A DNA stretch of 64,000 nucleotides, from positions 1,488,001 through 1,552,000 of the forward strand of contig NZ_AP018437.1 in NCBI RefSeq assembly GCF_003966975.1, given 5' to 3'. Below, in pieces: positions 30,406 through 43,465 of this stretch. Below the pieces are notes generated by a model. The model had not been told where the DNA came from. It saw only the letters and a program-made list of their open reading frames with translations, and searched no databases. The first letter of the stretch is position 1. Each line of letters starts with the position of its first letter. Made by a program: the position numbers and the translations under genes. Source of the stretch: Pelolinea submarina. Its GTDB lineage: Bacteria; Chloroflexota; Anaerolineae; Anaerolineales; Anaerolineaceae.

Positions 30406-30529
30406 CCATGATTAACACTCTGCTCTGCTGGTCTTACAGTACAATAGCCATGGAAATATTGGACTTTAACAGCTTAATATGGCAGAGCAAAGTCGCCTTT
30501 CCTTTTACATTCAGAAAGGAATAAAGGAA

Positions 30530-31702
30530 ATGGCGAAAAGTATTCGTGGTAGAAATGAAGGTTCGATCTCCAAACGACCCAACGGCAAATGGCGGGCGCA
30601 ATTATCCCTGAATGGCAAGCGGATCAGTTTTGGATCTACATCGAAAGAAGAATGCCAGGTCTGGTTGAGAAAAATGCTTAACAATTTGGATCGGGGCATG
30701 GACTATGAAGGCGGAAAGACTAACCTCAAAGATTATCTGGCTTTGTGGCTGGAATCCAATCAAACCACATTACGCCCAAAAACTGCTTACCAATATGCTC
30801 AGATTATCAGGTTGCACATCATTCCTTACTTGGGGGAGATCATTCTCAAGGATCTTCGCCAGAGTAGGGTGGAGCAATTTTATGGAGAGTTATTAAAAGC
30901 TGGGGTGGGTACCCGTACCATTCGATTGACCCATTCCGTACTCCACCGGGCATTAGAGAAAGCGCTGGGCTATGGTTTGATTCTGAGCAACCCGGCACAT
31001 GGTGCTGCTTTGCCTCGTCGCAATCAAACAGAAATGTCCGTTCTCGATGAGAGCCAGGTATCCCTGTTTTTAGTTGCCGCTCATAGTAGTCAGCATGAAG
31101 CTTTGTATCATCTGGCAGTGATCACCGGTATGCGCCAGGCAGAACTTTTGGGTTTGAAATGGTCTGATTTGCAGTGGATTTCCGGTACGTTACATGTCAG
31201 GCGACAGGTTCAACATGTACCCGGGCAGGGCTGGAGTTTCATCGAACCCAAAACCCGGGCAGGGCGGCGAGCGGTTGAATTAGGTGAAGGCAGTTTGCAG
31301 GCCTTACGACTACACCTGGAGCGTCAGGAGTTACAGAAGATGATCATGGGGCAACGCTGGAAAGAGAATAATTTAATCTTTCCTTCGTCAGTTGGAACGC
31401 CATTGAACCCCAGTAACCTTCGAATGGACTTCAATCGCGTATTAGATCACGCCGGAATCCCCAGAGTCCGTTTTCATGATTTGCGCCACACCGCAGCTTC
31501 TCTGATGCTCAATCATGGCATTCCAGTGATCGTTGTCTCGAAAATATTAGGGCATTCCAAACCCAGCGTCACCCTCGATATCTATGGTCACCTTTATCAT
31601 GAAATGCAGACTGAAGCAGCCCAAATCATGGATCGATTGGTCACACCAATTGAAGTGGATTTACTCGAGACTGCATCAAACCCGATTCACAACATTCATT
31701 GA
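30530..31702 (+). CDS. int: Tyrosine-type site-specific integrase
   Basis: A protein of about 390 residues from ATG 30530 (ribosome site AGAAAGGA at 30513-30520); an upstream in-frame start at 30479 is less likely. An arm-binding domain (GSISKRPNGKWRAQLSLNGK) and a SAM-like core-binding domain precede the catalytic domain, whose residues are visible: Arg in TGMRQAELLGLKW, the His-x-x-Arg box HDLRHTAASLML, Gly-His in KILGHSKPSVTL and the nucleophile Tyr in DIYGHLYHEM. It catalyses integration and excision of the element. The stop is about 115 bp from tRNA-Arg(TCG), pointing to that tRNA as the attachment target. Confidence 0.9.
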   Translation: MAKSIRGRNEGSISKRPNGKWRAQLSLNGKRISFGSTSKEECQVWLRKMLNNLDRGMDYEGGKTNLKDYLALWLESNQTTLRPKTAYQYAQIIRLHIIPYLGEIILKDLRQSRVEQFYGELLKAGVGTRTIRLTHSVLHRALEKALGYGLILSNPAHGAALPRRNQTEMSVLDESQVSLFLVAAHSSQHEALYHLAVITGMRQAELLGLKWSDLQWISGTLHVRRQVQHVPGQGWSFIEPKTRAGRRAVELGEGSLQALRLHLERQELQKMIMGQRWKENNLIFPSSVGTPLNPSNLRMDFNRVLDHAGIPRVRFHDLRHTAASLMLNHGIPVIVVSKILGHSKPSVTLDIYGHLYHEMQTEAAQIMDRLVTPIEVDLLETASNPIHNIH

Positions 31703-31816: not shown

Positions 31817-31892
31817 TGGCGCCCCCGCCGAGATTCGAACTCGGAACCTACTGATTCGAAGTCAGGCGCTCTGTCCATTGAGCTACGGGGGC
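31817..31892 (-). tRNA. tRNA-Arg (anticodon TCG)
   Basis: On the minus strand the gene starts GCCCCCGTAGCTCAATGGAC and has a complete cloverleaf: acceptor GCCCCCG/CGGGGGC, D arm with GCTC/GAGC, anticodon arm with loop CTTCGAA, and T arm with GTTCGAATC. The CCA end is encoded (31817-31819). The integrase side faces its 3' end, the common insertion point for such elements. Confidence 0.92.
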
Positions 31893-31985: not shown

Positions 31986-32013
31986 TTGACAAAACTGTAA
32001 AACATTGTATTAT
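31986..32013 (+). promoter_or_regulatory. Sigma70-type promoter of the Tad/Flp operon leader
   Basis: TTGACA (31986-31991) is followed after 16 bp by TATTAT (32008-32013), with further TATATA steps. A start near 32020 would place the riboswitch at the extreme 5' end of the transcript. Confidence 0.65.
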
Positions 32014-32029
32014 ATATACAGGTAAGACT

Positions 32030-32118
32030 CGATAATAGCAAACCTGTTGAAAGATAGGGACGCAAAGCTCTGGGTCTACGGCTGATGCAAGTCAGCTAAG
32101 ATCGCCAAGCCGCCGAAA
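32030..32118 (+). ncRNA. Cyclic di-GMP-I (GEMM) riboswitch aptamer
   Basis: The sequence carries the diagnostic GEMM-I features in order: AGCAAACC, the GAAA tetraloop, GGGACGCAAAGC and GGGTCTA, then a second hairpin and a closing GCCAAGCCGCC strand. c-di-GMP-I riboswitches control motility, pili and surface genes. Here the aptamer lies between a strong promoter and an intrinsic terminator in front of a Flp pilus operon. The usual logic is that c-di-GMP level changes read-through; the direction (on or off) cannot be read from the sequence alone. Confidence 0.9.
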
Positions 32119-32215
32119 GTCTGTTTGCTTTTTAAAGCAAAAGACAACATAGAAGTTACATTGTATATGATGCTATCAACATAGATCCCATTAAGGGATT
32201 GAATTAAGCATACAT

Positions 32216-32253
32216 AGGCGGATTGGGCGTTGGCTCTAATCTGCCTTTTTTTT
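32216..32253 (+). terminator. Intrinsic terminator in the riboswitch leader
   Basis: GGCGGATT (32217-32224) pairs with AATCTGCC (32238-32245, one G-U pair) and is followed by eight T residues. It lies about 100 bp after the aptamer and 22 bp before the first gene, so it probably forms the expression platform. Confidence 0.75.
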
Positions 32254-32274
32254 ATCGAGTTACCAGAGGAGAAT

Positions 32275-32781
32275 ATGGGAAGATTCTTACTGGAGTTGTT
32301 GAAGATAGTTTTAGTCACAGCGCTGCTGCTGGTCATCAGCTTTGGCGTATGGATCTACTTCCGCGGCACTCAGCCGATGGACATACCCGAAGCGCGCGGA
32401 ATCACATTTTGGCAGTTCATACAGGATCGTTGGAATGCTACTCAGGAAGCAGATACACGCGTAAGCGCGCTGCCGCAGTATTTAGGATGCCGTAATGACA
32501 TCTCATATTATTTTCCTCTTAATTTACGTGGTTCATTCAACTTTGCGTACGCCAGTCTCAACCCCGATTCAAAATTGGCTTATGCGTTTAAATATTGGGA
32601 AGAGCAGAAACCGGATGAGGTTCTGCCCAAGCTAAAACCGGTAAATCTTTCGGGTGTTCCCGATGCTTTCTGGTCTTATTTCGAGCGGGCATACTGGCGT
32701 GCACTGGTCAGTATCGATTACATGGCAGCTGAATGCAAGCTGGGCCCGGTCAATTTCGATGGAATCCTGGCAGGAAAGTAA
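32275..32781 (+). CDS. Hypothetical membrane-anchored protein, first gene of the Tad operon
   Basis: A protein of about 168 residues from ATG 32275, with AGAGGAG upstream. A TTG-started longer frame overlaps the terminator and is rejected. One N-terminal helix (LLELLKIVLVTALLLVISFG) precedes an outward, aromatic-rich domain (SYYFPLNLRGSFNFAYASL; AYAFKYWEEQKPDE; FWSYFERAYWRALVSIDYMA) that looks helical. It is the first gene after the c-di-GMP riboswitch and is probably part of the pilus assembly or anchoring apparatus. No named family recognised. Confidence 0.6.
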   Translation: MGRFLLELLKIVLVTALLLVISFGVWIYFRGTQPMDIPEARGITFWQFIQDRWNATQEADTRVSALPQYLGCRNDISYYFPLNLRGSFNFAYASLNPDSKLAYAFKYWEEQKPDEVLPKLKPVNLSGVPDAFWSYFERAYWRALVSIDYMAAECKLGPVNFDGILAGK

Positions 32782-32782
32782 C

Positions 32783-33328
32783 ATGAAAAACAAAATTTTT
32801 CTTTTCTGGATTTTGAGCTTATCCCTACTCGTTTTTGTCAGCGGCTGCCAGCCGGTTTCCATCTATACACAGCGGGCAACCGCCACAGCTTATTCGGCCG
32901 ACTACATGACCACTGCTATGCAAGCAGCGGAAAATGGCGCCATGGCTTTATGTAACATTGATTTTTCTGAAGATGCGGATGGATATATACAACAGGTTTG
33001 CGATACATCCACACAGCTTGGTTGTGATTTCTTTACCAATCAGATCAATCAGGCTTGGAGTGACCTGGAGCGCGCTTACAGTTCGGATGTATTGGAATGC
33101 ACACCCGCTACCAGCCGCTATATAGATGAAGGTGAACAATTTGGCATGCGCGTTCAATATTGGCAGGTCAATTTACAAGGTACTAAAGGTTGGTCGGAAA
33201 ATTCGAAAAACCGTGAATATTGGTTGCAGGTGGCAGAAGAGAACAGCAATTGGAAATTGAATCGTGTTTTGACCAGTGATGAGATCGCTTATTACATGGC
33301 TATCGATTCAGCGAGTGGAGAGGAATAG
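32783..33328 (+). CDS. Lipoprotein of the Tad operon
   Basis: A 181-residue protein. The signal peptide ends in a lipobox, LLVFVSGC (Cys near residue 22). The mature part has several Cys (CNIDFS, VCDTSTQLGCDF, LECTPATS) that could pair outside the cell, and a C-terminal beta-rich end (YWLQVAEENSNWKLNRVL). It starts 1 bp after the preceding stop. It is a likely cell-surface partner of pilus assembly in a monoderm, taking the place of outer-membrane pilotins. Function unknown. Confidence 0.6.
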   Translation: MKNKIFLFWILSLSLLVFVSGCQPVSIYTQRATATAYSADYMTTAMQAAENGAMALCNIDFSEDADGYIQQVCDTSTQLGCDFFTNQINQAWSDLERAYSSDVLECTPATSRYIDEGEQFGMRVQYWQVNLQGTKGWSENSKNREYWLQVAEENSNWKLNRVLTSDEIAYYMAIDSASGEE

Positions 33329-33350
33329 GAAGGGACTTGAGGTGTGTATT

Positions 33351-34493
33351 ATGAATAAAAAGTCAATCGCAACCATTCTAGCTTTCATCATGATTTTGGC
33401 GACAAACAACCCCGCGTTTGCGGGCAACGGCTACGGTAATTCCGATGATGATTCCGGAGAGAGCAGCACGACTGACTCGGCTGCGCCTGATCCGGGTGTC
33501 AGCAGTGGGCAGGATGATACCAAGACATCAACAATCAGGTGGATCCTGCCGCATGGCGATACTTTCATCATTGATGGTGAAGAAGTAAATATTGTCCTCG
33601 ATTGGGAAAGCCTGGACATTACTTCAGAGCGTGATGCTGGCAATGGTAATGTAACTTTCATCGGTATCGGTGGGTCAGGTGATGAATCCGATTCCAGCAG
33701 TAGTTCCTGCGGTAGTGGCAATGGCCGTGGAAATTGCAGTTGTACCTGTAATAATAATAACAACGGCAATGGAAATGGGAATAACAATGGCGGCGGACCA
33801 CTGCCCAGCAGCGACTGCGGCAATGTGTGGGTAACGCCGGGCTCCATTTCGGCGACTGCTCAACAGATTGCTCCGGATTATGCGGTTGTGGTCAACCAGG
33901 ATCCTGAACAGAATGGTGTGACCATTGAATGGCATATCAGCATTGCGCCGACAACGGTCAACTACGAAAAATGGAAGATAGTTGGCCAGCGGATGGTTGC
34001 GTGCGTCGAGAATGACTCGAACGGACACCAGAACAGAAACGGCAATGATGATGGAAATGGTGAACAGAATCGTTATGGTTGTGGTCACAATAACTGTGGA
34101 TGTCCCAGTGGTTGGACTGCCGTTATTGAGCATATTTGGGCATGCTCGGTAACCTCCAAGGTTTATAAAGAAAGTGTTGATGAGCTGGTTGCAGGTGCAT
34201 CGTTGACGCTCGATTCGCGGGCCTGGATCACTGGGGAACTGGCCGATGCTTACCCTGGCGCAACACTGCAGCATCCTGATTGGGGCATAGCGCAGACTCC
34301 GGCTTGCATATGGAATGGCGATGTATGTACTTGGGACTTCACGGCGAATATCCCTGTCGTGGATCCGGGTTGGTACGATATCAGATTGAGCGGCGCGACT
34401 TCCGGAACACGGGTATCGCCGGCGCGCAGTTTTGAAATTACAGCAGGTGAATTTGGAGTGTATCTACTGGATAACACAGCTATGACGCAGTAA
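33351..34493 (+). CDS. Secreted Asn/Gly-rich protein of the Tad operon
   Basis: A protein of about 380 residues from ATG 33351 (GAGGTG 6 bp upstream). The signal peptide ends near NPAFAG. A Ser/Asp-rich segment follows, then a low-complexity Asn/Gly/Cys tract (CSCTCNNNNNGNGNGNN, about 130-145) and a second Asn-rich loop (about 225-245, HQNRNGNDDGNGEQNRYG). These sit between beta-rich segments that look like one or two Ig-like folds (ITAGEFGVYLLDN at the end). It may be a surface or tip-associated protein of the pilus; repeats of this kind are often variable between strains. Confidence 0.55.
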   Translation: MNKKSIATILAFIMILATNNPAFAGNGYGNSDDDSGESSTTDSAAPDPGVSSGQDDTKTSTIRWILPHGDTFIIDGEEVNIVLDWESLDITSERDAGNGNVTFIGIGGSGDESDSSSSSCGSGNGRGNCSCTCNNNNNGNGNGNNNGGGPLPSSDCGNVWVTPGSISATAQQIAPDYAVVVNQDPEQNGVTIEWHISIAPTTVNYEKWKIVGQRMVACVENDSNGHQNRNGNDDGNGEQNRYGCGHNNCGCPSGWTAVIEHIWACSVTSKVYKESVDELVAGASLTLDSRAWITGELADAYPGATLQHPDWGIAQTPACIWNGDVCTWDFTANIPVVDPGWYDIRLSGATSGTRVSPARSFEITAGEFGVYLLDNTAMTQ

Positions 34494-34540
34494 GAACTGA
34501 GTTTAGCAATAAATCATGGGAAGATGATGGAGCTAAGAGA

Positions 34541-35395
34541 ATGAAGAAGATATTACCAGTATTGTTGGCGGCAGTGGCCTTTATCGTAGTGCTGTTGATT
34601 CTGTCGCCAACACCTGAAGAAAATGTGCTGGTGGCCGCCTATGACCTCTCAATGGGCCACGTAATTGAAGAAGGTGACGTAGTTTACGCTACTTTCCCCA
34701 AAGAAATGGTCCCGGAAGATGCGGTTTTTGAACCAAGCGAAATAATCGGGTTGGCATTGCTGACCGGACGTTCACAGGGAGATATTATCCGCGCTTCCAA
34801 CATTGGATCAGAACCTATGGCCCTGGCACCAAACGAGCGCGCGGTAGCGATTACGGTTGACAACGCGTCCGGTTTAGCGGGTTTGTTGCGCCCTGGAGAT
34901 CTGGTAGGTATCACAGCTGTGATTGATTCCAGTAACCAGGGAGAAAAAGGAACCTATAGTAAGGCGACAATAGAAAATCTGCGGGTTTTATATCTATCTC
35001 CAGAATTTCAGTCAATCGACCCGGACGAGAACATCCTTACAAGCGAAACCGATAATACTTCGGCAACAGTATCGACTACTCGTAAAACAGAAGGCGCATT
35101 AGTGCTGGCCGTTTCCATAGAGTCGGACAACATCGTATATGATTTCAAAGATGTGGAACCTGAATTGGGAACGCAATTACGCAATGTGAATGTTGTGGAA
35201 ATGTTAACTGCCCTGGAAGCCAGTGATGGTGCCCGTCTATATGTATATCTCATGCCGCGTAACGCTGAAGAAATGGTTACCTCTGGTTTATGGCTGCCGG
35301 AGCTGGTGATCAAACCCTATAAACCCACACCGACGGTTAATCCTTATGCATTGGAAACACCTACTCCTGCGCCGGTTGTAGTTGGAGGCGAATAA
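34541..35395 (+). CDS. cpaB: Flp pilus assembly protein CpaB/RcpC
   Basis: A 284-residue protein. One N-terminal helix (LPVLLAAVAFIVVLLIL) is followed by the SAF domain (about 28-90, VLVAAYDLSMGHVIEEGDVV; LLTGRSQGDIIRASNI) and the RcpC/CpaB region (RAVAITVDNASGLAGLLRPG, DLVGITAV). CpaB is a periplasmic or surface-side assembly factor of Tad pili; in diderms it works with the secretin, which is absent here. The stop overlaps the start of the next gene by 1 bp. Confidence 0.85.
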   Translation: MKKILPVLLAAVAFIVVLLILSPTPEENVLVAAYDLSMGHVIEEGDVVYATFPKEMVPEDAVFEPSEIIGLALLTGRSQGDIIRASNIGSEPMALAPNERAVAITVDNASGLAGLLRPGDLVGITAVIDSSNQGEKGTYSKATIENLRVLYLSPEFQSIDPDENILTSETDNTSATVSTTRKTEGALVLAVSIESDNIVYDFKDVEPELGTQLRNVNVVEMLTALEASDGARLYVYLMPRNAEEMVTSGLWLPELVIKPYKPTPTVNPYALETPTPAPVVVGGE

Positions 35396-36705
35396 TGACT
35401 GGATGGAATGCTGAAAACGAAGAAGCCGTAAGCGCTGAAGAAGCAGTTGTCATGCTTCTAGCAGGGCCGCCTTCGCGGGTGAATGCCTGGTTTACCTCAT
35501 TGCAGATGGATTCCCGTTTCCGTGTAAACACTTTTTCCACGGATCCGCAGGATCTGGAAAACAAGATGGGTTATAACCCCGAAGCAATATTGCTAGATGC
35601 AACTATCTTCAGCGGACCTGAAAATCTGACAAATTTCCTTACCAAAACGACCAGCGCGGTATATGTAGTTCTGCCGCGTGAGGCTGGTGATGATGTACGC
35701 AAGTCATTGAGCGATTTACCCTCAGTTAGGGGTGTGTTTATCAATGACATAAACCTATCGCAAATGGCCGGCCGTATCTACGCCGAGGTAATTGCCCTGC
35801 GCAACCAGGCTCCCACAATGGGGCAGGTTGGCAAAGGCTATCGCACAGAACGCATTGCGGGCGGATTACGCGTTATCACAGTATGGAGCCGCACAGGTGG
35901 CAGCGGTAAGAGCACCATCGCGGCGGCTTTAGCGCTGGAAGCAGCCCAACGCGGTATCAAAACACTACTGGTCGGTTTGGGAGTGCCGGATATTTCATTA
36001 CCGACATTCTTGAATTTGAAGACGACACCGAATTTATTTGGCTGGCTGGCAAACCCTACCTTTGAGGGAGGTATCCGGCCGAATATACAGTCAAAAGGAC
36101 TGCTGGATGTAATGGTGGGTTTGCAGGATGGGATCAAGGAAAAAGAATTGGTCAAACCGCCGGAGGATCCGGCTTCTATTAATCAATTGGTGATCAACGC
36201 TACGTTCGGTGGGTACAGCATCGTAATTCTGGATACACCTGTGTCCGGAGCCTATTTCAATGCCATTTCCGCCAGCAATACCATGGTGATGGTGACCACG
36301 CCTATGCTAGACCAGGCAGTGGTTTCCGCAGAAGCCTATCGTATGGCTTTCAAGCGTATGCGTGATCAGCACCGTATCGGTGTCGGCAACGTTTTTGTAG
36401 TGCTCAACCGCTATCGCCCTGGGCTATTGAGTTCGAATGAATGGCATGAAGCCGCGGATGCTTATACCCAAACCATGGGTATCGGGCACTTCCCGCCTGT
36501 AGCTGAAGTGATTCCGGATGTTCCCGAGGTTGCTCTGGCAGCGAATGCGGGCAGGTCGGTATTAACAGCCGGCGATGATTTTGCCGGTCCGATTCACCGT
36601 TTAGGCGATGTGTTATACGGCGGCGGCAGTGGTTCAACCCATGAAGACCAGAAGGTTATGCACTTTGGCCCGATCCGTATTCGGAAAGGGATTGTGGGAG
36701 CATAA
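35395..36705 (+). CDS. tadZ: Tad pilus localisation ATPase TadZ/CpaE
   Basis: A 436-residue protein. The N-terminal about 145 residues resemble a receiver-like (atypical response regulator) fold (VVMLLAGPPSRVNAWFTSLQ). The C-terminal MinD/ParA-like ATPase has RTGGSGKSTIAAALALEA near residue 165, then GLGVPDISLPTFLN and IVILDTPVSGAYF. The P-loop lacks the first deviant Lys of classical ParA (TGGSGKS). TadZ/CpaE places the pilus machine at a cell site. Overlap with cpaB and 3-bp spacing to tadA show co-translation. Confidence 0.85.
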   Translation: MTGWNAENEEAVSAEEAVVMLLAGPPSRVNAWFTSLQMDSRFRVNTFSTDPQDLENKMGYNPEAILLDATIFSGPENLTNFLTKTTSAVYVVLPREAGDDVRKSLSDLPSVRGVFINDINLSQMAGRIYAEVIALRNQAPTMGQVGKGYRTERIAGGLRVITVWSRTGGSGKSTIAAALALEAAQRGIKTLLVGLGVPDISLPTFLNLKTTPNLFGWLANPTFEGGIRPNIQSKGLLDVMVGLQDGIKEKELVKPPEDPASINQLVINATFGGYSIVILDTPVSGAYFNAISASNTMVMVTTPMLDQAVVSAEAYRMAFKRMRDQHRIGVGNVFVVLNRYRPGLLSSNEWHEAADAYTQTMGIGHFPPVAEVIPDVPEVALAANAGRSVLTAGDDFAGPIHRLGDVLYGGGSGSTHEDQKVMHFGPIRIRKGIVGA

Positions 36706-36708
36706 ACC

Positions 36709-37944
36709 ATGTTGGACACTTTTTATCGCACGATAAATGAGGATGAATCACATAAGGTGCTGGAAGAAGGCGCTTCCCGCATGTCGGATGGCCTTACTTT
36801 TCGTGATCTGGTTGACCTGGATAGATTAAATTCAACCGCACGCGGCATTATCCAAAAAGTACTGAATGAAAAACGCATTGATGCGGATATTGATACCATT
36901 GCCAACCTGGCGCAAAAGTTGGTGGCACGGGTTTCCGGTCTTGAATTTCTGATGCCGCTCTTCAAGCGGGATGATATTTCCAACATTTTTATTAATCCGG
37001 ATGGCACACTGCGTATCCAAAAGAAAGGCATGAAAACCTTTGAGATTGTTCGCGAGAAAATTGCCGCACAGGAAGTTGATCGCGTAGTAGAAGCGTTGTT
37101 GCGTACATCCGGCCGGGCATTATCGGAAGCGACTCCAACAGTGGATGCGAAATTACCGCGCATTGAAACGCTTCCCGGCCTTATGGGCGGCGCGCGCGTG
37201 AAGCTGATTCACCCTGTCATCGCAACCGGAAAATACGATTTACCTTCCATCAGTATCCGTTTATATCAAACGGCGCCCGTAACACCGGACGATATTATTG
37301 GTTGGAAGGTTGCGCCAGAGATTGTTATCAAGAAATTATTGGAAGTAATCGGAAAGAAAGCCCGTTTGTTGGTTCTCGGGGGCACTAATACCGGTAAGAC
37401 TACGCTGCTCTCAGCTTTATGCAATGGGGGCATCTATAAAGGAGCCCGGATTGTAAAAATTGAAGACCCGGAAGAGATTTGGCTGGATCATGACCATGTT
37501 GTCACTTTGGAAGCCAGACCGGCACCTCCCGGATCATCCGTTCCCCCTTACACGATTCGTGATGGTGTAGATGATGCCATGCGTATGTCACCCGACTGGT
37601 TAATTGTGGGTGAAGTTCGTACCGGCGACGCGGCTCTGACTCTTTTCCGTGCGCAAATGAGCGACCACCCAGGCCTTTCAACTTTCCACGCAGAAACACC
37701 TGAATTTGCCATCTATCGGGTGGGTAACTTGCTAATCTCTGATACGCAGGAGACCGATATGCGCAATGCCAAGAGTACTTTTGCCATGGCGGTGGATGTT
37801 CTCATTCAGGTAGGTTGGTCTGGCAAAGAGCGGCGCATCATGAGTATTTGGGAAGTCGAAAAGATGCTTGTGGATAACGAGGTCGTCATTCATCCCTTAT
37901 ATAGACTGGGTGATGAAGATATGAAACCGATGACGGTCAGGTAA
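36709..37944 (+). CDS. tadA: Tad pilus secretion ATPase TadA/CpaF
   Basis: A 411-residue GspE/VirB11-family ATPase. N-terminal domain, then FKRDDISNIFINPDG, Walker A LVLGGTNTGKTTLLSAL near residue 225, the Asp box IVKIEDPEEIWL, Walker B SPDWLIVGEVRTGDAAL and the His box STFHAETPE. It powers both assembly and, in Tad systems, retraction-like movements of Flp pili from the cytoplasmic face. It is shorter than many CpaF proteins by lacking a long N-terminal extension. Position between tadZ and tadB is standard. Confidence 0.9.
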   Translation: MLDTFYRTINEDESHKVLEEGASRMSDGLTFRDLVDLDRLNSTARGIIQKVLNEKRIDADIDTIANLAQKLVARVSGLEFLMPLFKRDDISNIFINPDGTLRIQKKGMKTFEIVREKIAAQEVDRVVEALLRTSGRALSEATPTVDAKLPRIETLPGLMGGARVKLIHPVIATGKYDLPSISIRLYQTAPVTPDDIIGWKVAPEIVIKKLLEVIGKKARLLVLGGTNTGKTTLLSALCNGGIYKGARIVKIEDPEEIWLDHDHVVTLEARPAPPGSSVPPYTIRDGVDDAMRMSPDWLIVGEVRTGDAALTLFRAQMSDHPGLSTFHAETPEFAIYRVGNLLISDTQETDMRNAKSTFAMAVDVLIQVGWSGKERRIMSIWEVEKMLVDNEVVIHPLYRLGDEDMKPMTVR

Positions 37945-37949
37945 TCAGA

Positions 37950-38900
37950 ATGAATAATTTTAACGAAATTGCCGCTAAGATTTTACCTTTTTTGGGAGCT
38001 GTCCTGGCTTCTTACGTGATTTATATTATCGGCCAGCAGTTATCCAAGAGTGTTTTTAAGCAAAACACTTCCAACCGGGTTAAACAGATGATTGGTTTCA
38101 AGGAAGAACAGAAAGTGAAACCATCCGATTTTGGATCAACCGAGTTCAAGATTCGTCTGGCATTTTCTAAATATCACATCGACGTCTATGAACATGAAAA
38201 ATTGGCTTTGAACCTGGCAAGGTTAGCGATATCCCTCTTGATGGTCGCTTTCTTACACTTCTTGTTTGGCTTACCGTTGATCACCAGCATGGCTGGCGGT
38301 TTAGGCGGCATTATGATTACAAATTCTTTTGCCGCGGGCGCCTGGACAGCCATGTGTAATGAGGTTGATAAAGAAATTCCGATTTTTCTTTCCGGTTTTA
38401 CCTCGACCATTCAGGTAAACCCCAACGTGCTACAGGCAGTTGAAGAAGAATCCACGGTACTCTCGTTAAATAGTCCCCTGAAAAAATGGCTAATCGAACG
38501 TTTTGTACGGCTGGGTCAGGAACGCGGCGTTTCAGCGCTGGAACCATTGGTGGAAGAGGCATTCCGTATTTCAAACTCCCTGGGCATCATGATTTTCCTG
38601 ATTGGCCGGTTATGGCGGACAGGCGGCATGGAATGGAAACGTTCATTTGCATTAGCATCCTCCAACCTGGAAGGTGTGATGGAAGCTCGCTTAATGGGGT
38701 TGGCTGCCGGCAATTCTGCCAAGGGTGCGGTTAAGCTTATTATTGGCGTGACTTTGTTTATCATCCTGGTTATGGCACGCAACCCGGTATTTAAATCTTC
38801 AATGGAGACAACTGCTGTTCAAGCTGTCTATGCAATGTCAATATTAACCATGATCTTTGGTTATGGCTTTATGAGCAATATGGTTGATAGCCTGATGTGA
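37950..38900 (+). CDS. tadB: Tad pilus inner-membrane platform protein TadB
   Basis: A 316-residue protein of the T2SF/TadB fold: an N-terminal helix (ILPFLGAVLASYVIYIIG), a pair of helices (about 85-125), a cytoplasmic helical domain (PIFLSGFTSTIQVNPNVLQA; EAFRISNSLGIMIFLIGRLW) and two C-terminal helices. It forms the membrane platform with TadC that extracts and polymerises the Flp pilin. It starts 5 bp after tadA and is 7 bp from tadC. Confidence 0.8.
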   Translation: MNNFNEIAAKILPFLGAVLASYVIYIIGQQLSKSVFKQNTSNRVKQMIGFKEEQKVKPSDFGSTEFKIRLAFSKYHIDVYEHEKLALNLARLAISLLMVAFLHFLFGLPLITSMAGGLGGIMITNSFAAGAWTAMCNEVDKEIPIFLSGFTSTIQVNPNVLQAVEEESTVLSLNSPLKKWLIERFVRLGQERGVSALEPLVEEAFRISNSLGIMIFLIGRLWRTGGMEWKRSFALASSNLEGVMEARLMGLAAGNSAKGAVKLIIGVTLFIILVMARNPVFKSSMETTAVQAVYAMSILTMIFGYGFMSNMVDSLM

Positions 38901-38907
38901 GGCAAAT

Positions 38908-39783
38908 ATGAACGAACAACTATTAAAACAAATCCTTTTGATCGGTTCAGCGGCATTAGTTGCGATGGTGGTGTATCTGTTTGCCTCTCAATTTAGCTTC
39001 GAAAAATCTTCCGGCAAAAGGGTGCGGGAGATGATTGGCAGCAATGCGAATACCTTCTTTGATCGCAGTGGTGAAAAGCTGGTTAATAAAATGAAAACCG
39101 GATTTTTAGGATCATGGAAAACCAGCCTATATTGGGCGCAGGTTAGCGGCGAATATTTGACCTGGTCGGTCGGAGGTATGCTGGTGCGCGGATTATTGGC
39201 TGCTTTGGGAATCGTAATCCTTATTCTGTTGTTCGGATTGCCATATTTCGCCTGGCTGTTGGTCATATTCGCGATTTTTATGCCTTATTTACTGGTCAAT
39301 GGCAAGGCCACTGAAACAAAGAAATTGGTCAAACGTTTACTGCCAGAGACAGCCACTGTGATTGCAGCGGAGATGGACGCCGGCAGTACCGCTGGTCAAG
39401 CCATCAGCCGTGCCGGAGAATTACCCGGACCTTTAGGCAAGGTTATCAACGATGCAGTCTCCCAATCCAGGCAAAGTGAACGGGCAATGTTCAGCCGCGG
39501 CGCCAGCAAAGGCGTTTTGATGGAAGAGCTGGGCCGGCATGATTTACCGGAGCTCTCCCGTTTTGCAATGCAGCTTGACCGGGTGGCATCCAAAGGCGTT
39601 GATGCTTCCAGAATTATGATCGAAATTGCCCGCGGTTTAGCGCGCGAATATAAATCGCAGATTCAACAAACGGCATCCAATATGGATAATGAATTGCTGG
39701 TTCCCATGACCCTTTTCTTCTTCCTGCCGTTTATTGTCTCTATCTTGGTTCCATTAATGGTGTCTTTGACAGCCGCGATGTAA
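38908..39783 (+). CDS. tadC: Tad pilus inner-membrane platform protein TadC
   Basis: A 291-residue T2SF-family protein with the same layout as TadB: N-terminal helix (ILLIGSAALVAMVVYLFA), paired helices (about 90-130, GLLAALGIVILILLFGLPYF), the cytoplasmic T2SF domain (LLPETATVIAAEMDAGSTAG, FAMQLDRVASKGVDASRIMI) and a final helix pair (MTLFFFLPFIVSILVPLMVS). It pairs with TadB as the pilus platform. It is followed, 14 bp on, by a methyltransferase-like membrane gene that is not a usual member of Tad operons. Confidence 0.8.
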   Translation: MNEQLLKQILLIGSAALVAMVVYLFASQFSFEKSSGKRVREMIGSNANTFFDRSGEKLVNKMKTGFLGSWKTSLYWAQVSGEYLTWSVGGMLVRGLLAALGIVILILLFGLPYFAWLLVIFAIFMPYLLVNGKATETKKLVKRLLPETATVIAAEMDAGSTAGQAISRAGELPGPLGKVINDAVSQSRQSERAMFSRGASKGVLMEELGRHDLPELSRFAMQLDRVASKGVDASRIMIEIARGLAREYKSQIQQTASNMDNELLVPMTLFFFLPFIVSILVPLMVSLTAAM

Positions 39784-39797
39784 AGGAAAAATAAGAA

Positions 39798-40358
39798 ATG
39801 CTACTGGATTATTTCGGAATCATACTGATGGCAATTTTAGGCGGGGCACGCCTCAACCAGGTATTAACTGGTGAATGGTGGGCGCTGCCGTTATTCGCGC
39901 ATGCGATGCTGTCAGCCTGCATGTTGGTTCTACACCGAAAAACCAGCCGTCACGCACCGTTATTGCAGCGTTTGATTGCCTGGGCATCTGCGTTGCTGCC
40001 ATTTGCTGTTCAGGTTAACAATTCTGTTCCAGCAATGAACCGTTTTCTGTCCCTGTTCGGCGTGGTGATTGCCATTTGGGCAATCGCAGCTTTGGGTAAA
40101 TCCTTTGATGTATCTCCTGCCGACCGCGGTTTAGTCAAGCGCGGCCCCTATAAATGGCTGCGCCACCCGATGTATGCCAGCGAACTATTCTCTGTTATCG
40201 TAATTGTGGTGGTTGATTTGAGTTTGCGCAATATCCTGGTCACACTGGTATTGTTGGCTACTCTTTATCTGCGCATCCATTGGGAAGAAAAAATCATTCG
40301 CGGGTATGCTGATTATGGAAAACAGGTTCGCAGCCGCGTTATTCCGGGGGTGTGGTAA
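39798..40358 (+). CDS. Isoprenylcysteine/phospholipid methyltransferase-like membrane protein
   Basis: A 186-residue protein with four to five hydrophobic helices and the C-terminal signature of the ICMT/PEMT family: RGLVKRGPYKWLRHPMYASE, then HWEEKIIRGYADYGKQVRSR and VIPGVW. These enzymes use S-adenosylmethionine to methylate membrane-embedded substrates. In a Tad operon the substrate might be a lipid or the pilin, since Tad prepilin peptidases lack the methyltransferase part of classical ones; this is speculation. It ends in a 1-bp TAATG overlap with the next gene, so it is a true operon member. Confidence 0.75.
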   Translation: MLLDYFGIILMAILGGARLNQVLTGEWWALPLFAHAMLSACMLVLHRKTSRHAPLLQRLIAWASALLPFAVQVNNSVPAMNRFLSLFGVVIAIWAIAALGKSFDVSPADRGLVKRGPYKWLRHPMYASELFSVIVIVVVDLSLRNILVTLVLLATLYLRIHWEEKIIRGYADYGKQVRSRVIPGVW

Positions 40359-41494
40359 TGGATAGATGCCTGAAAACGCCACTCCTTTTAAGCTTAGCCT
40401 TGTTAACGATTTTTACAGGGTCTGCTTTCACCCTGCAGAAAAAGGTGGGCAGGGACCGTAATCCGCCTACGGTTGTGTTATCCATGCCGGCTCCCACGGG
40501 GAATAACGGCTGGTACAACCAACCTGTACAGGTGTTTGTAAAAGCCTACGATGGCGGTTCAGGTTTGGCGGATGTGCAAGTCTCCCTGGGTGGAGGTACC
40601 TGGTACAAACGTTCTTTGACTATTCGTAAAGATGGAACTTATTACGTGATAGGCAAGGCAGTGGACAAGGCTGGCAACATGGCTACCGCCACACAATTGA
40701 TAAAGGTTGATCTGACGCCTCCTGAAGTGGATTTCAATATCCCGCAAGTTAACGGACAGCCGGATTGGTACGTTACTCCTGTTTCATTAGCTTTGAACGG
40801 AAGCGATGCGCTTTCCGGTGTGTACAAGACTACGTTATCGGCACAGGGAACCTTTGAGATGATCGATGACGGGTTGTTGGATAGACGCGAGAGTACCGCG
40901 GGCGTACAAACAGCCAACCAGATACTGGTTGCCGGCAAAGAACTCAACTCAACCTCGGCATATATAAAGGTAACAAAATCCGGCGATTATTTAGTGAGCG
41001 GTTATGTGGAAGATATTGCCGGTAACCGTACACCGGTTGAAACGCGAGTTGTTTTGGATTTGGATGCACCGCTGGTCGAGTTTACTTCTCCAGATCAATA
41101 TTATGGAAATATTGAATTAAGCGGCCCTATTTCGGAAATGAATTCGGGAGTGGCCGGGGTTTGGATTGACAGCGGAAAAGGTTGGAAACGGGCGAATGTG
41201 AAGGATTCGAGTTGGTCCTACCTGTGGGCTACTGAAGGATTAAAAGATGACGATTACATTATCCTAGCCAGAGTCATGGACAAGGCTGGAAACTTATCGA
41301 ACAGCAGTACAAAGGTTACCGTGGTTAATCATTTCTGGCCGCTGGCTGCCATTTACGGGATCCTGATCAGCCTGGGATTAGTGGCCATGTACGATCCGCG
41401 CCGCCGAGCTCTGATGGAATTAACGTTAATGACGGCAAGATATGCGCATATGGATAATAGTGCGCGCCATTTGGAAAGGAAGAAATATGATTGA
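40358..41494 (+). CDS. Ig-like domain surface protein with C-terminal membrane anchor
   Basis: A protein of about 378 residues from ATG 40358. The signal peptide (about 1-25) is followed by three Ig-like/beta-sandwich repeats of the kind seen in surface proteins: RNPPTVVLSMPAP and VKAYDGGSGLADVQVSLGGG, KAVDKAGNMATATQ, then TPPEVDFNIPQVNGQPDWYV with GSDALSGVYK, then a third ending in MDKAGNLSNSST. A C-terminal helix (WPLAAIYGILISLGLVAM) and a basic cytoplasmic tail anchor it. It is a candidate pilus-base or surface adhesion protein. Its end overlaps the next gene by 8 bp. Confidence 0.7.
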   Translation: MDRCLKTPLLLSLALLTIFTGSAFTLQKKVGRDRNPPTVVLSMPAPTGNNGWYNQPVQVFVKAYDGGSGLADVQVSLGGGTWYKRSLTIRKDGTYYVIGKAVDKAGNMATATQLIKVDLTPPEVDFNIPQVNGQPDWYVTPVSLALNGSDALSGVYKTTLSAQGTFEMIDDGLLDRRESTAGVQTANQILVAGKELNSTSAYIKVTKSGDYLVSGYVEDIAGNRTPVETRVVLDLDAPLVEFTSPDQYYGNIELSGPISEMNSGVAGVWIDSGKGWKRANVKDSSWSYLWATEGLKDDDYIILARVMDKAGNLSNSSTKVTVVNHFWPLAAIYGILISLGLVAMYDPRRRALMELTLMTARYAHMDNSARHLERKKYD

Positions 41495-42146
41495 TTTCTT
41501 CGCAAGTATTACTATCGCTTTAATTGTTGTGATGACGGTTGTGATTTTTCTGTCCAACCAACGGCAAGCGCACATCATGAAGCAAATGCGTTTTGTCCTT
41601 GAGGATTGGTACCAATCTCAAATGCGCGATCGCCGCGAAGCATATCGCAAGGAAATCTTTATGCCGGATGCGCTCCAATGGCTTGGCAGTCAGGTCAATT
41701 TGAAGATTGTGGATCAGGGCCGCAGATTTGAGAATCCGCCTGCTTTGGAGTTGATCGCCGGCGAAGGTGTCAGACTGGTAGTCAGCCCACTTTCAAATAG
41801 GGAATTACGTGCGGCAGTCCGCAAGATTGAATCGAAGACACGTAAAGTATCCAAATTGGTTGAGCCGCTGTTGGGTTCACAACCTGCGAAAGTACAAGTG
41901 GTTGAACGATCCAATGCCACTGTGCACGAATGGTTCGAGGTAGAGATTGAAACAGCCGGGAAAATGCTTGGTTTGAACTGGATGGGATTGAAGGCACTTT
42001 ATTTCTATATGATACCCGTCCAAACAAATGAGGAGCATATACCGTTGATTAGTTTTGACCTGGAAAACCTTAAACTGCAAATCAGAAGTGTATTTACTAC
42101 TGCGTTGAATTGGGTGAAACAACGGTTTGCAAAGGCATCGGGATGA
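41487..42146 (+). CDS. Hypothetical membrane-anchored protein of the Tad operon
   Basis: A protein of about 219 residues from ATG 41487, with GGAAAGGA upstream. One N-terminal helix (ITIALIVVMTVVIFLS) is followed by a charged region with helical character (MRFVLEDWYQSQMRDRREAY) and a mixed C-terminal domain (RKIESKTRKVSKLVEPLLG; VEIETAGKMLGLNWMGLKAL). The bulk is probably cytoplasmic. It sits between the Ig-like surface protein and the pilin genes. No family recognised. Confidence 0.55.
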   Translation: MIDFFASITIALIVVMTVVIFLSNQRQAHIMKQMRFVLEDWYQSQMRDRREAYRKEIFMPDALQWLGSQVNLKIVDQGRRFENPPALELIAGEGVRLVVSPLSNRELRAAVRKIESKTRKVSKLVEPLLGSQPAKVQVVERSNATVHEWFEVEIETAGKMLGLNWMGLKALYFYMIPVQTNEEHIPLISFDLENLKLQIRSVFTTALNWVKQRFAKASG

Positions 42147-42207
42147 CTGCCTATTAAAAAGTCATCAAAAAAATAAAAATGGGAAGAATTTGATGAAAGG
42201 AGCAAAG

Positions 42208-42375
42208 ATGAACACAATCATGCATTTATACGGGATGCTGAAGGATCGCAAAGGTGCGACCATGGCAGAGTATGCGGTAATCGCAGCGGTATTGATCCTG
42301 GTAGCGATCGTAGCGTTCACGAGCTTGGGATCAACGATTGTGGCCAAGATCAATGATCTGGTCAGCAATATGTAA
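42208..42375 (+). CDS. flp: Flp-type pilin, copy 1
   Basis: A 55-residue prepilin; AAGGAG precedes the ATG at 42208, so the in-frame ATG at 42193 is not used. A short basic leader ends KDRKG, then the mature ATMAEYAVIAAVLILVAIVA with Glu at +5 and Tyr at +6, the hallmark of Flp (type IVb) pilins cut after Gly by a TadV-type peptidase. No such peptidase gene is in the window. The protein is identical in all 55 residues to copy 2, 50 bp downstream. Confidence 0.9.
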   Translation: MNTIMHLYGMLKDRKGATMAEYAVIAAVLILVAIVAFTSLGSTIVAKINDLVSNM

Positions 42376-42425
42376 GCAGTGGCGAGACGAAAAGAGAGAA
42401 AAGAAGAAGGAATAAAGGAGCAGAA

Positions 42426-42593
42426 ATGAATACGATAATGCATTTATATGGAATGTTGAAAGACCGCAAAGGCGCGACCATGGCAGAGTATGCAGTAATC
42501 GCAGCGGTATTGATCCTGGTAGCGATCGTGGCATTCACCAGCCTGGGATCGACCATTGTGGCCAAGATCAACGACTTAGTCAGCAATATGTAA
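42426..42593 (+). CDS. flp: Flp-type pilin, copy 2
   Basis: A 55-residue prepilin encoded after AAAGGAG. The amino-acid sequence equals that of copy 1, but about 19 of 55 codons differ, all silently. The same RKG-ATMAEY processing site is present. This pattern shows an old duplication held by strong purifying selection or repeated conversion at protein level. Two equal subunits could raise dose or be expressed at different times. It lies 27 bp upstream of the broken TadE-like gene. Confidence 0.9.
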   Translation: MNTIMHLYGMLKDRKGATMAEYAVIAAVLILVAIVAFTSLGSTIVAKINDLVSNM

Positions 42594-42619
42594 TAGCCTG
42601 AAGGCGAAGGAAAAGCAAA

Positions 42620-43031
42620 ATGACGTGGCAAAGGAAAGGAAGCAAGAAGGGGAGCTCGATGGCAGAATCAGCCATCACCCTACCGGTGGTGGTGCTGCTG
42701 ACCTTTGCCATGGTGAACCTGGCGATGGCCCTCGTGTGCAGCGGAAGCCGTGCGTAACGCGGCGAATTATGGAGCGCGGGTGGGATCGGTATCACAGGTC
42801 AACCCGGCGGCCAATGCCGTTGCGGCAACACAAGGCCGACTGGATGCAATCTCGGTAGGGACGTACGCGATAAGTGCGAACGGGGGAGGGTATCGAGGCG
42901 CGCAGGTAAATGTTGTGGTGGATTGGGCAGTGCCAAACTATATAGGAAGTCTGATAACCTACATAGGCGGCGGCGATCAGATGAACTTTGAAGGCACTGC
43001 CCTTTCTACATTCCGTCAGGAGGGCTGGTGA
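42620..43031 (+). pseudogene. TadE-like pseudopilin with apparent frameshift
   Basis: ATG 42620 opens MTWQRKGSKKGSSMAESAIT, LPVVVLLTFAMVNLAMAL, a TadE/TadG-type N-terminal helix with a prepilin-like site and Glu at +4/+5, but the frame ends at 42757. Moving by one base near 42735-42742 restores the expected AAEAVRNAANYGARVGSV and carries on to 43031, where it meets the next gene in a GTGA overlap. The two halves form one normal TadE-like minor pilin of about 136 residues. The break is a real 1-bp indel, an assembly error or, less likely, a programmed shift. Confidence 0.75.
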
Positions 43032-43465
43032 TCAAAAAATTCTGGCGAGATTGTAAGGGTTATGTGATGCCCTATACCGTGATGTTGATCACGTTAGTGG
43101 CGATGCCAATGTTGGTTTTGTCATCGGAAATCGTGCGGGCTATGTACGTAGGCGTACATATCCAAACAGCTGTGGACGCAGCTTGCACAGCCGCCGTGCA
43201 AGCAGTGGATGTGTCTTACTTCATCGATTATGGTGTGGTGCGCATTGATAGTTCTAATGCCACCGCATATGCCTTGCGCGAATTTAACAGCACTGTCGCC
43301 CAATCAAATATTGAGAAATATAGCCCGGCATTAACGGCTGTATCTGTTGTAAGTGATCATATAGTAGAATGCCACGCTTCGGCCCAGATGATTTGGACGT
43401 TGCCGGGTGTGGCGCCCTTGACGTTCAATGTCCTTTCTGCAGCCGAAGCGGAGGCGAGACGATAA
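43028..43465 (+). CDS. TadE/TadG-like minor pilin or pilus-associated protein
   Basis: A 145-residue protein with a GTG start that overlaps the end of the TadE-like gene (GTGA). A basic lead, MIKKFWRDCKGYVMPYTVML, enters one N-terminal helix. The rest is outward and Ala/Val-rich (HIQTAVDAACTAAVQAVDVS). TadE/F/G minor pilins begin with such a helix and help start or regulate Flp pilus assembly. It is the last gene of the operon; the opposite-strand lipoprotein gene at 43542 converges on it. I see no strong terminator in the 76-bp gap. Confidence 0.65.
   Translation: MIKKFWRDCKGYVMPYTVMLITLVAMPMLVLSSEIVRAMYVGVHIQTAVDAACTAAVQAVDVSYFIDYGVVRIDSSNATAYALREFNSTVAQSNIEKYSPALTAVSVVSDHIVECHASAQMIWTLPGVAPLTFNVLSAAEAEARR

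Follow-up and report, generated by a model that had tools for sequence, protein, structure and literature searches.

The window analysed here, a 64-kb stretch of the Pelolinea submarina genome (one 3.52-Mb contig, 94% complete), contains a Tad/Flp pilus operon preceded by a structured leader. The leader features are listed below, with pocket positions in Vc2 numbering.

31986–32013, + strand, sigma-70-type promoter TTGACA-N16-TATTAT, 11/12 consensus matches; position conserved in Ch43/G163 and C20
32027–32117, + strand, GEMM-I (c-di-GMP-I, RF01051) aptamer, Rfam 72.5 bits, E 2.7e-12
32036–32037, + strand, U19-A20 of the ligand pocket; AG in all three genus relatives with the leader
32064, + strand, A47, intact; position from the Rfam alignment
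32103–32114, + strand, A strand: aptamer 3' strand CGCCAAGCCGCC and antiterminator 5' half, complementary to the terminator 5' arm
32113, + strand, C92, intact and inside the A strand; Rfam alignment
32118–32215, + strand, 98-nt spacer with predicted hairpins (about 32119–32145 and 32165–32210)
32216–32253, + strand, intrinsic terminator with T8: 31-nt hairpin 32216–32246, dG -19.0; T8 at 32246–32253
32217–32229, + strand, T strand: terminator 5' arm GGCGGAUUGGGCG, which pairs with either the A strand or the H strand
32236–32246, + strand, H strand of the terminator
32265–32271, + strand, Shine-Dalgarno AGAGGAG, from the sequence

An earlier note, made from the letters alone, had proposed a promoter, a GEMM-I aptamer, and a terminator with eight T residues, and all three were recovered. 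The TTGACA element and its distance are conserved in the orthologous leaders of Ch43 and C20. The RF01051 match covers the entire model (positions 1–87 of 87) at more than the gathering score of 35 bits, and it is the sole Rfam riboswitch in the window; predicted folds stretch the aptamer through P1 to about 32025–32122 (strands about 32025–32031 and 32114–32122). The terminator is conserved, with sequence changes, in three relatives. The first ATG, at 32275, lies 21 nt past the T8 tract, so the short interval to the first gene holds, while the proposed figure of 22 bp needs correction. A transcription-terminator expression platform is supported for the Tad leader.

Upstream of the leader, a phage-type integrase gene (30479–31702) abuts a tRNA (31820–31892), and homology with the sister genome starts at this same tRNA; an element was therefore probably inserted there, and no second copy of the tRNA end was found in the window.

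The genes behind the leader are the following:

32275–32781, + strand, first gene, 168-aa membrane-anchored protein of no known family; orthologues at 84% (Ch43) and 78% (C20)
32783–33328, + strand, predicted lipoprotein, no family
33348–34493, + strand, predicted secreted protein, no family; start placed at an internal ATG, as a likely assignment
34541–35395, + strand, CpaB/RcpC (PF16976 3e-14, TIGR03177 8.8e-24)
35395–36705, + strand, CpaE/TadZ-type ParA-like ATPase (Pfam/NCBIfam)
36709–37944, + strand, TadA/CpaF ATPase (TIGR03819 9.1e-42); 91% identical in Ch43/G163
37950–38900, + strand, TadB-like membrane protein, by position and C20 homology; no Pfam match over the cut-off
38908–39783, + strand, TadC-like, weak T2SSF match below the cut-off
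39798–40358, + strand, ICMT/PEMT-like membrane methyltransferase (PF04140 8.2e-10)
40352–41494, + strand, Ig-like (Big_13/OmpL47) surface protein, from domain matches
42208–42375, + strand, Flp pilin copy 1 (PF04964 7.1e-9)
42426–42593, + strand, Flp pilin copy 2, protein identical to copy 1
42620–43465, + strand, small TadE-like genes closing the operon, by position and hydrophobic N-termini; no Pfam match

Pfam and NCBIfam thus bear out the proposed monoderm Tad/Flp operon of about 11 kb (32275–43465), with the CpaB, TadZ/CpaE, TadA, TadB/C, Flp, and TadE-like components expected of a monoderm (Tfpc) system, TadB, TadC, and TadE being assigned by position and weak matches. No secretin was found in the P. 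submarina genome by a search that was positive in 6 of 14 control genomes, so the monoderm label stands. A simple consensus scan for internal promoters or terminators splitting the operon returned none beyond chance. Within the order, the first gene has few and only weak homologues outside the genus. The tandem Flp stretches (42196–42375 and 42414–42593) are 88% identical in DNA and identical in protein, a pattern that points to purifying selection or gene conversion.

When about 85,000 species were scanned with a pattern for the leader core, it turned up in three further assemblies, namely two of Pelolinea sp. and that of the Anaerolineae bacterium Ch43. In Ch43 (G163), which belongs to the same genus, the leader can be aligned all the way from the promoter to the start codon; in Pelolinea C20 it stands ahead of the orthologous Tad operon, and in Pelolinea E21 ahead of a TadE, TadE, TadG cluster. 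Elsewhere in the order, aptamers with G at position 20 also precede TadE/TadG genes (L076, L093, L107), so the association with Tad is recurrent, not unique.

The P. submarina genome holds ten c-di-GMP-I aptamers. The others precede a sortase-like gene (in tandem), an S24/signal-peptidase-like gene, a beta-helix protein, an EAL protein, DUF3048, two repeat adhesins, and one gene with no Pfam match. The EAL protein has a degenerate GGDEF domain, and its aptamer (L007, C1:832841-832932) likely provides feedback on the messenger. At the two adhesin-like genes (L009 and L010; C1:1444373 and C1:1422394), aptamer P1 overlaps the terminator in an ON-type layout.

The earlier note had also suggested an expression platform longer than usual, with additional hairpins; the unusual length is supported, and the hairpins are predicted. 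The aptamer–terminator gap is 98–99 nt in the window, compared with gaps of mostly 10–50 nt (median about 30 nt) for 84 relatives' aptamers with a terminator candidate beyond the aptamer. The survey is crude: it left 78 of 192 aptamers without a terminator, and its gaps >150 nt are likely artefacts. Spacer length is kept across the four leaders (99, 99, 94, and 81 nt), and spacer sequence is conserved only between the window and Ch43, its nearest sister. No remnant of another aptamer was detected within the 98-nt gap by Rfam or by a local model. We infer that the spacer may serve as a time delay for slow ligand binding and that its hairpins may fold A onto T, which would account for a long spacer of maintained length. 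That a c-di-GMP-I leader with a long platform can fail to respond, as Bc1 did in vivo (PMC11218506), speaks against a working switch here.

In the ligand pocket, the alignment shows a changed base that the earlier note does not mention. The Rfam consensus AAaGGCAAA compares with AAUAGCAAA in the window, placing A at position 20 (base 32037), where the Ch43, C20, and E21 leaders have G; A20 is thus most simply viewed as derived in the P. submarina lineage. A47, which stacks between the ligand bases, is intact, as is C92. The Geobacter RNA has A41 as the counterpart of A47, and C92 (equivalent to C75) pairs with G-beta of the ligand (PMC6274999). Position 20 influences the choice between c-di-GMP and cGAMP without acting as a hard filter (PMC9262584); its base sets selectivity (PMC7288161), and a G20A mutant of a c-di-GMP RNA binds cGAMP (PMC7288161, PMC6274999). 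Of the features of GEMM-Ib, A20 is present in the window and C-G at the base of P2 is not: the pair is G21-C46, intact here and shared by each of the 20 aptamers with A20 in the set, in contrast to C15-G40 of the solved cGAMP riboswitch (PMC6274999). A20 is over-represented in the genus (9/25 aptamers versus 11/165 others in the order; Fisher p 0.0002, kinship ignored). Orthologues keep it at the DUF3048 and adhesin leaders and differ at position 20 at the Tad and second sortase aptamers.

Outside the genus, A20 aptamers (at L051, L057, L075, L085, L099, L106, L108, and L111) mostly sit in tandem with a G20 partner (9/11, versus 66/155 for G20; p 0.02), usually as the upstream member (8/9; p 0.014), while within the genus the A20 tandem member is the downstream one. 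Such tandems may be of mixed specificity or mixed affinity.

Folding of the four leaders (window, Ch43, C20, and E21) revealed a common set of exclusive pairings, in which T is complementary to both the aptamer A strand and the terminator H strand. In each, the best upstream partner region of T holds the A strand, with A:T dG values of -18.1, -20.5, -23.9, and -17.4 and shuffle p values of 0.0035, 0.0005, <0.0005, and 0.009, respectively; with a second choice of segment, complementarity in the window was weaker (p 0.033; 0.0195). T and H co-vary between species (GCGGAU/AUCCGC in Ch43, GCGGAC/GUCCGC in C20), and both versions of T pair with one and the same A strand, where the ligand-contacting C92 lies. 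The antiterminator is the full-length minimum free energy (MFE) fold of the window and Ch43 leaders. For C20 it is the MFE fold when T is just completed but not at full length, and for E21 it is the MFE fold neither at full length nor at the point where T emerges. Holding the window leader in the aptamer fold costs 10.5 kcal/mol with T out and H not, and 3.8 kcal/mol at full length, a predicted cost within the range that ligand binding could pay.

The window terminator does not overlap the aptamer and both can form together; in the predicted folds, the terminator is blocked by one structure only, and that structure disrupts the aptamer as well. This is the logic of Cd1 from C. difficile, where T+H forms the terminator, A+T forms the antiterminator, and bound ligand leaves T free, turning the operon OFF (PMC9262584). 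Based on the A/T/H folding and this Cd1-like architecture, ligand-dependent termination is predicted, and the messenger should repress the Tad pilus, a direction absent from the first reading. Repression of a pilus by c-di-GMP is the opposite of what holds for C. difficile type IV pili. Overall, we consider it probable, with some reserve, that this GEMM-I cyclic-dinucleotide riboswitch is a Cd1-type transcriptional OFF-switch on a monoderm Tad pilus operon.

According to the proposed mechanism, RNA polymerase would start at the promoter and make the aptamer. Should T emerge while the aptamer is still empty, T would pair with A, and the resulting antiterminator would destroy the aptamer and let transcription continue into the pilus genes. 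With ligand bound, A would be locked in the aptamer, T would pair with H, and transcription would stop at T8. The 99-nt spacer would delay this decision while its hairpins bring the two strands together. The G20A change probably lowers affinity for c-di-GMP or makes the RNA more permissive toward 3',3'-cGAMP, and it would raise the messenger level required for pilus shut-off.

The opposite polarity, with ligand blocking termination and thereby activating the pilus in the manner of the Geobacter pilM riboswitch, would fit the biological expectation that c-di-GMP promotes surface attachment, as well as the ON-type adhesin leaders of the same genome. We nevertheless regard it as quite improbable, as the distant terminator can coexist with the aptamer and the only structure blocking it breaks the aptamer too. 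Taken with those adhesin leaders, the predicted OFF-switch means that one genome may employ GEMM-I switches of both polarities, each for different surface structures. A switch that has decayed or become insensitive to ligand, with affinity lost through A20 and the pilus constitutive or dependent on another factor, is highly unlikely: the base change is confined to this species among the four leaders and non-responding c-di-GMP-I leaders are known (Bc1, PMC11218506), but the remaining aptamer, the A/T/H strands, and the promoter are intact, a pair of neighbouring changes in a pocket that is otherwise conserved does not resemble general decay, and orthologues retain A20 at the DUF3048 and adhesin leaders.

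Whether A20 has shifted the ligand to 3',3'-cGAMP, so that cGAMP controls the pilus through a GEMM-Ib-like riboswitch, touches on the cyclases of the genome. A20 is the GEMM-Ib hallmark, and U19-A20 gives a J1/2 of 'AUAAUA', close to that of the Geobacter RNA; the frequency of A20 in the genus (kinship ignored), its conservation at the DUF3048 and adhesin leaders, and a CBASS-type CD-NTase (PF18144; L229, C1:694507-694884) in the genome also speak for cGAMP. However, every intact GGDEF domain of the genome has Asp as the residue contacting guanine, and c-di-GMP is therefore produced; no Hypr GGDEF (Ser/Thr at PleD-344; signature from PMC6456294) was found among these domains, the degenerate ones not lending themselves to such a call. 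The P2 pair is of the c-di-GMP-I type, and G20 is found in the orthologous leaders. As for the CD-NTase, it resembles a phage-defence enzyme, no evidence ties it to the Tad leader, and it is absent from two congeners, sisters that have A20 aptamers at other genes. The sole true Hypr-like GGDEF in 61 genomes of the order (L137, in G084 of another Anaerolineae family; Ser at the guanine contact, NDSHGHLMGS ... RYGGDEF) occurs alongside G20 aptamers. A cGAMP riboswitch therefore appears unlikely, and an assignment of cGAMP from A20 alone is weakened by the GGDEF survey, the G20 orthologues, and a P2 of the c-di-GMP type. Given G20 in the sisters, the P2 pair, and the lack of a detected Hypr GGDEF, c-di-GMP is the likeliest ligand, bound probably with a changed affinity or a looser specificity. 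The c-di-GMP assignment of the earlier note is thus favoured but, with A at position 20, less than certain; the remainder of the pocket, with A47 and C92, is of the c-di-GMP type. Rather doubtful is a natural specificity switch in progress, with A20 here, G20 in the three sister Tad leaders, and variation among other leaders of the genus; the lineage may then run a promiscuous or cGAMP-responsive GEMM-I with no Hypr cyclase, in OFF control of the Tad pilus.

The idea that A20 goes together with Hypr GGDEF across the order was also considered and rejected: a DNA pattern occurred in 8 genomes, and translation left only G084 as real. The broader pattern GAY..GGNCAY..GGNWSN gave non-specific matches only.

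A conserved GEMM-I switch on a monoderm Tad operon is confirmed, and the riboswitch kind is already known; new are the predicted OFF polarity and, from the alignments, the natural change of selector base between sister species. In the open library we found no paper that connects a Chloroflexota Tad operon with a c-di-GMP riboswitch, which is weak evidence of absence. If the proposed reading is true, an entire monoderm Tad pilus is under direct RNA-based second-messenger control, with predicted repression instead of activation. Sister leaders near-identical but for the selector base would offer a natural experiment on a change of ligand or set-point. Attachment and the aggregation of filaments are important in anaerobic digesters and sediments, two settings in which Anaerolineae are common.

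Among known systems, Bc1 of Bacillus thuringiensis (PMC11218506) shares a c-di-GMP-I aptamer with an unusually long expression platform; it has two terminators and no in vivo response, whereas the window has one terminator. The Vc2 G20A laboratory mutant (PDB 4YB1; PMC6274999, PMC7288161) has the c-di-GMP-I pocket and the same defining change, and it binds cGAMP; in the window the change is natural and position 19 is also altered (U). The pilM cGAMP riboswitch of Geobacter metallireducens (GEMM-Ib, PMC9262584) resembles the window in its GEMM-I fold, in A at position 20, and in controlling a pilus operon by transcription termination. It differs in being an ON-switch whose terminator excludes the aptamer, and the solved GEMM-Ib RNA has C-G at P2, in contrast to G-C in the window, in a genome with no Hypr GGDEF found. 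Cd1, at the C. difficile flagellar operon (PMC9262584), shares the GEMM-I aptamer, a terminator able to coexist with it, an antiterminator built from the aptamer 3' strand and the terminator 5' arm that captures the C92 region, and OFF polarity (here predicted), while differing in its target (flagella versus Tad pilus), spacer (roughly 60 versus about 99 nt), and selector base (G20 versus A20).
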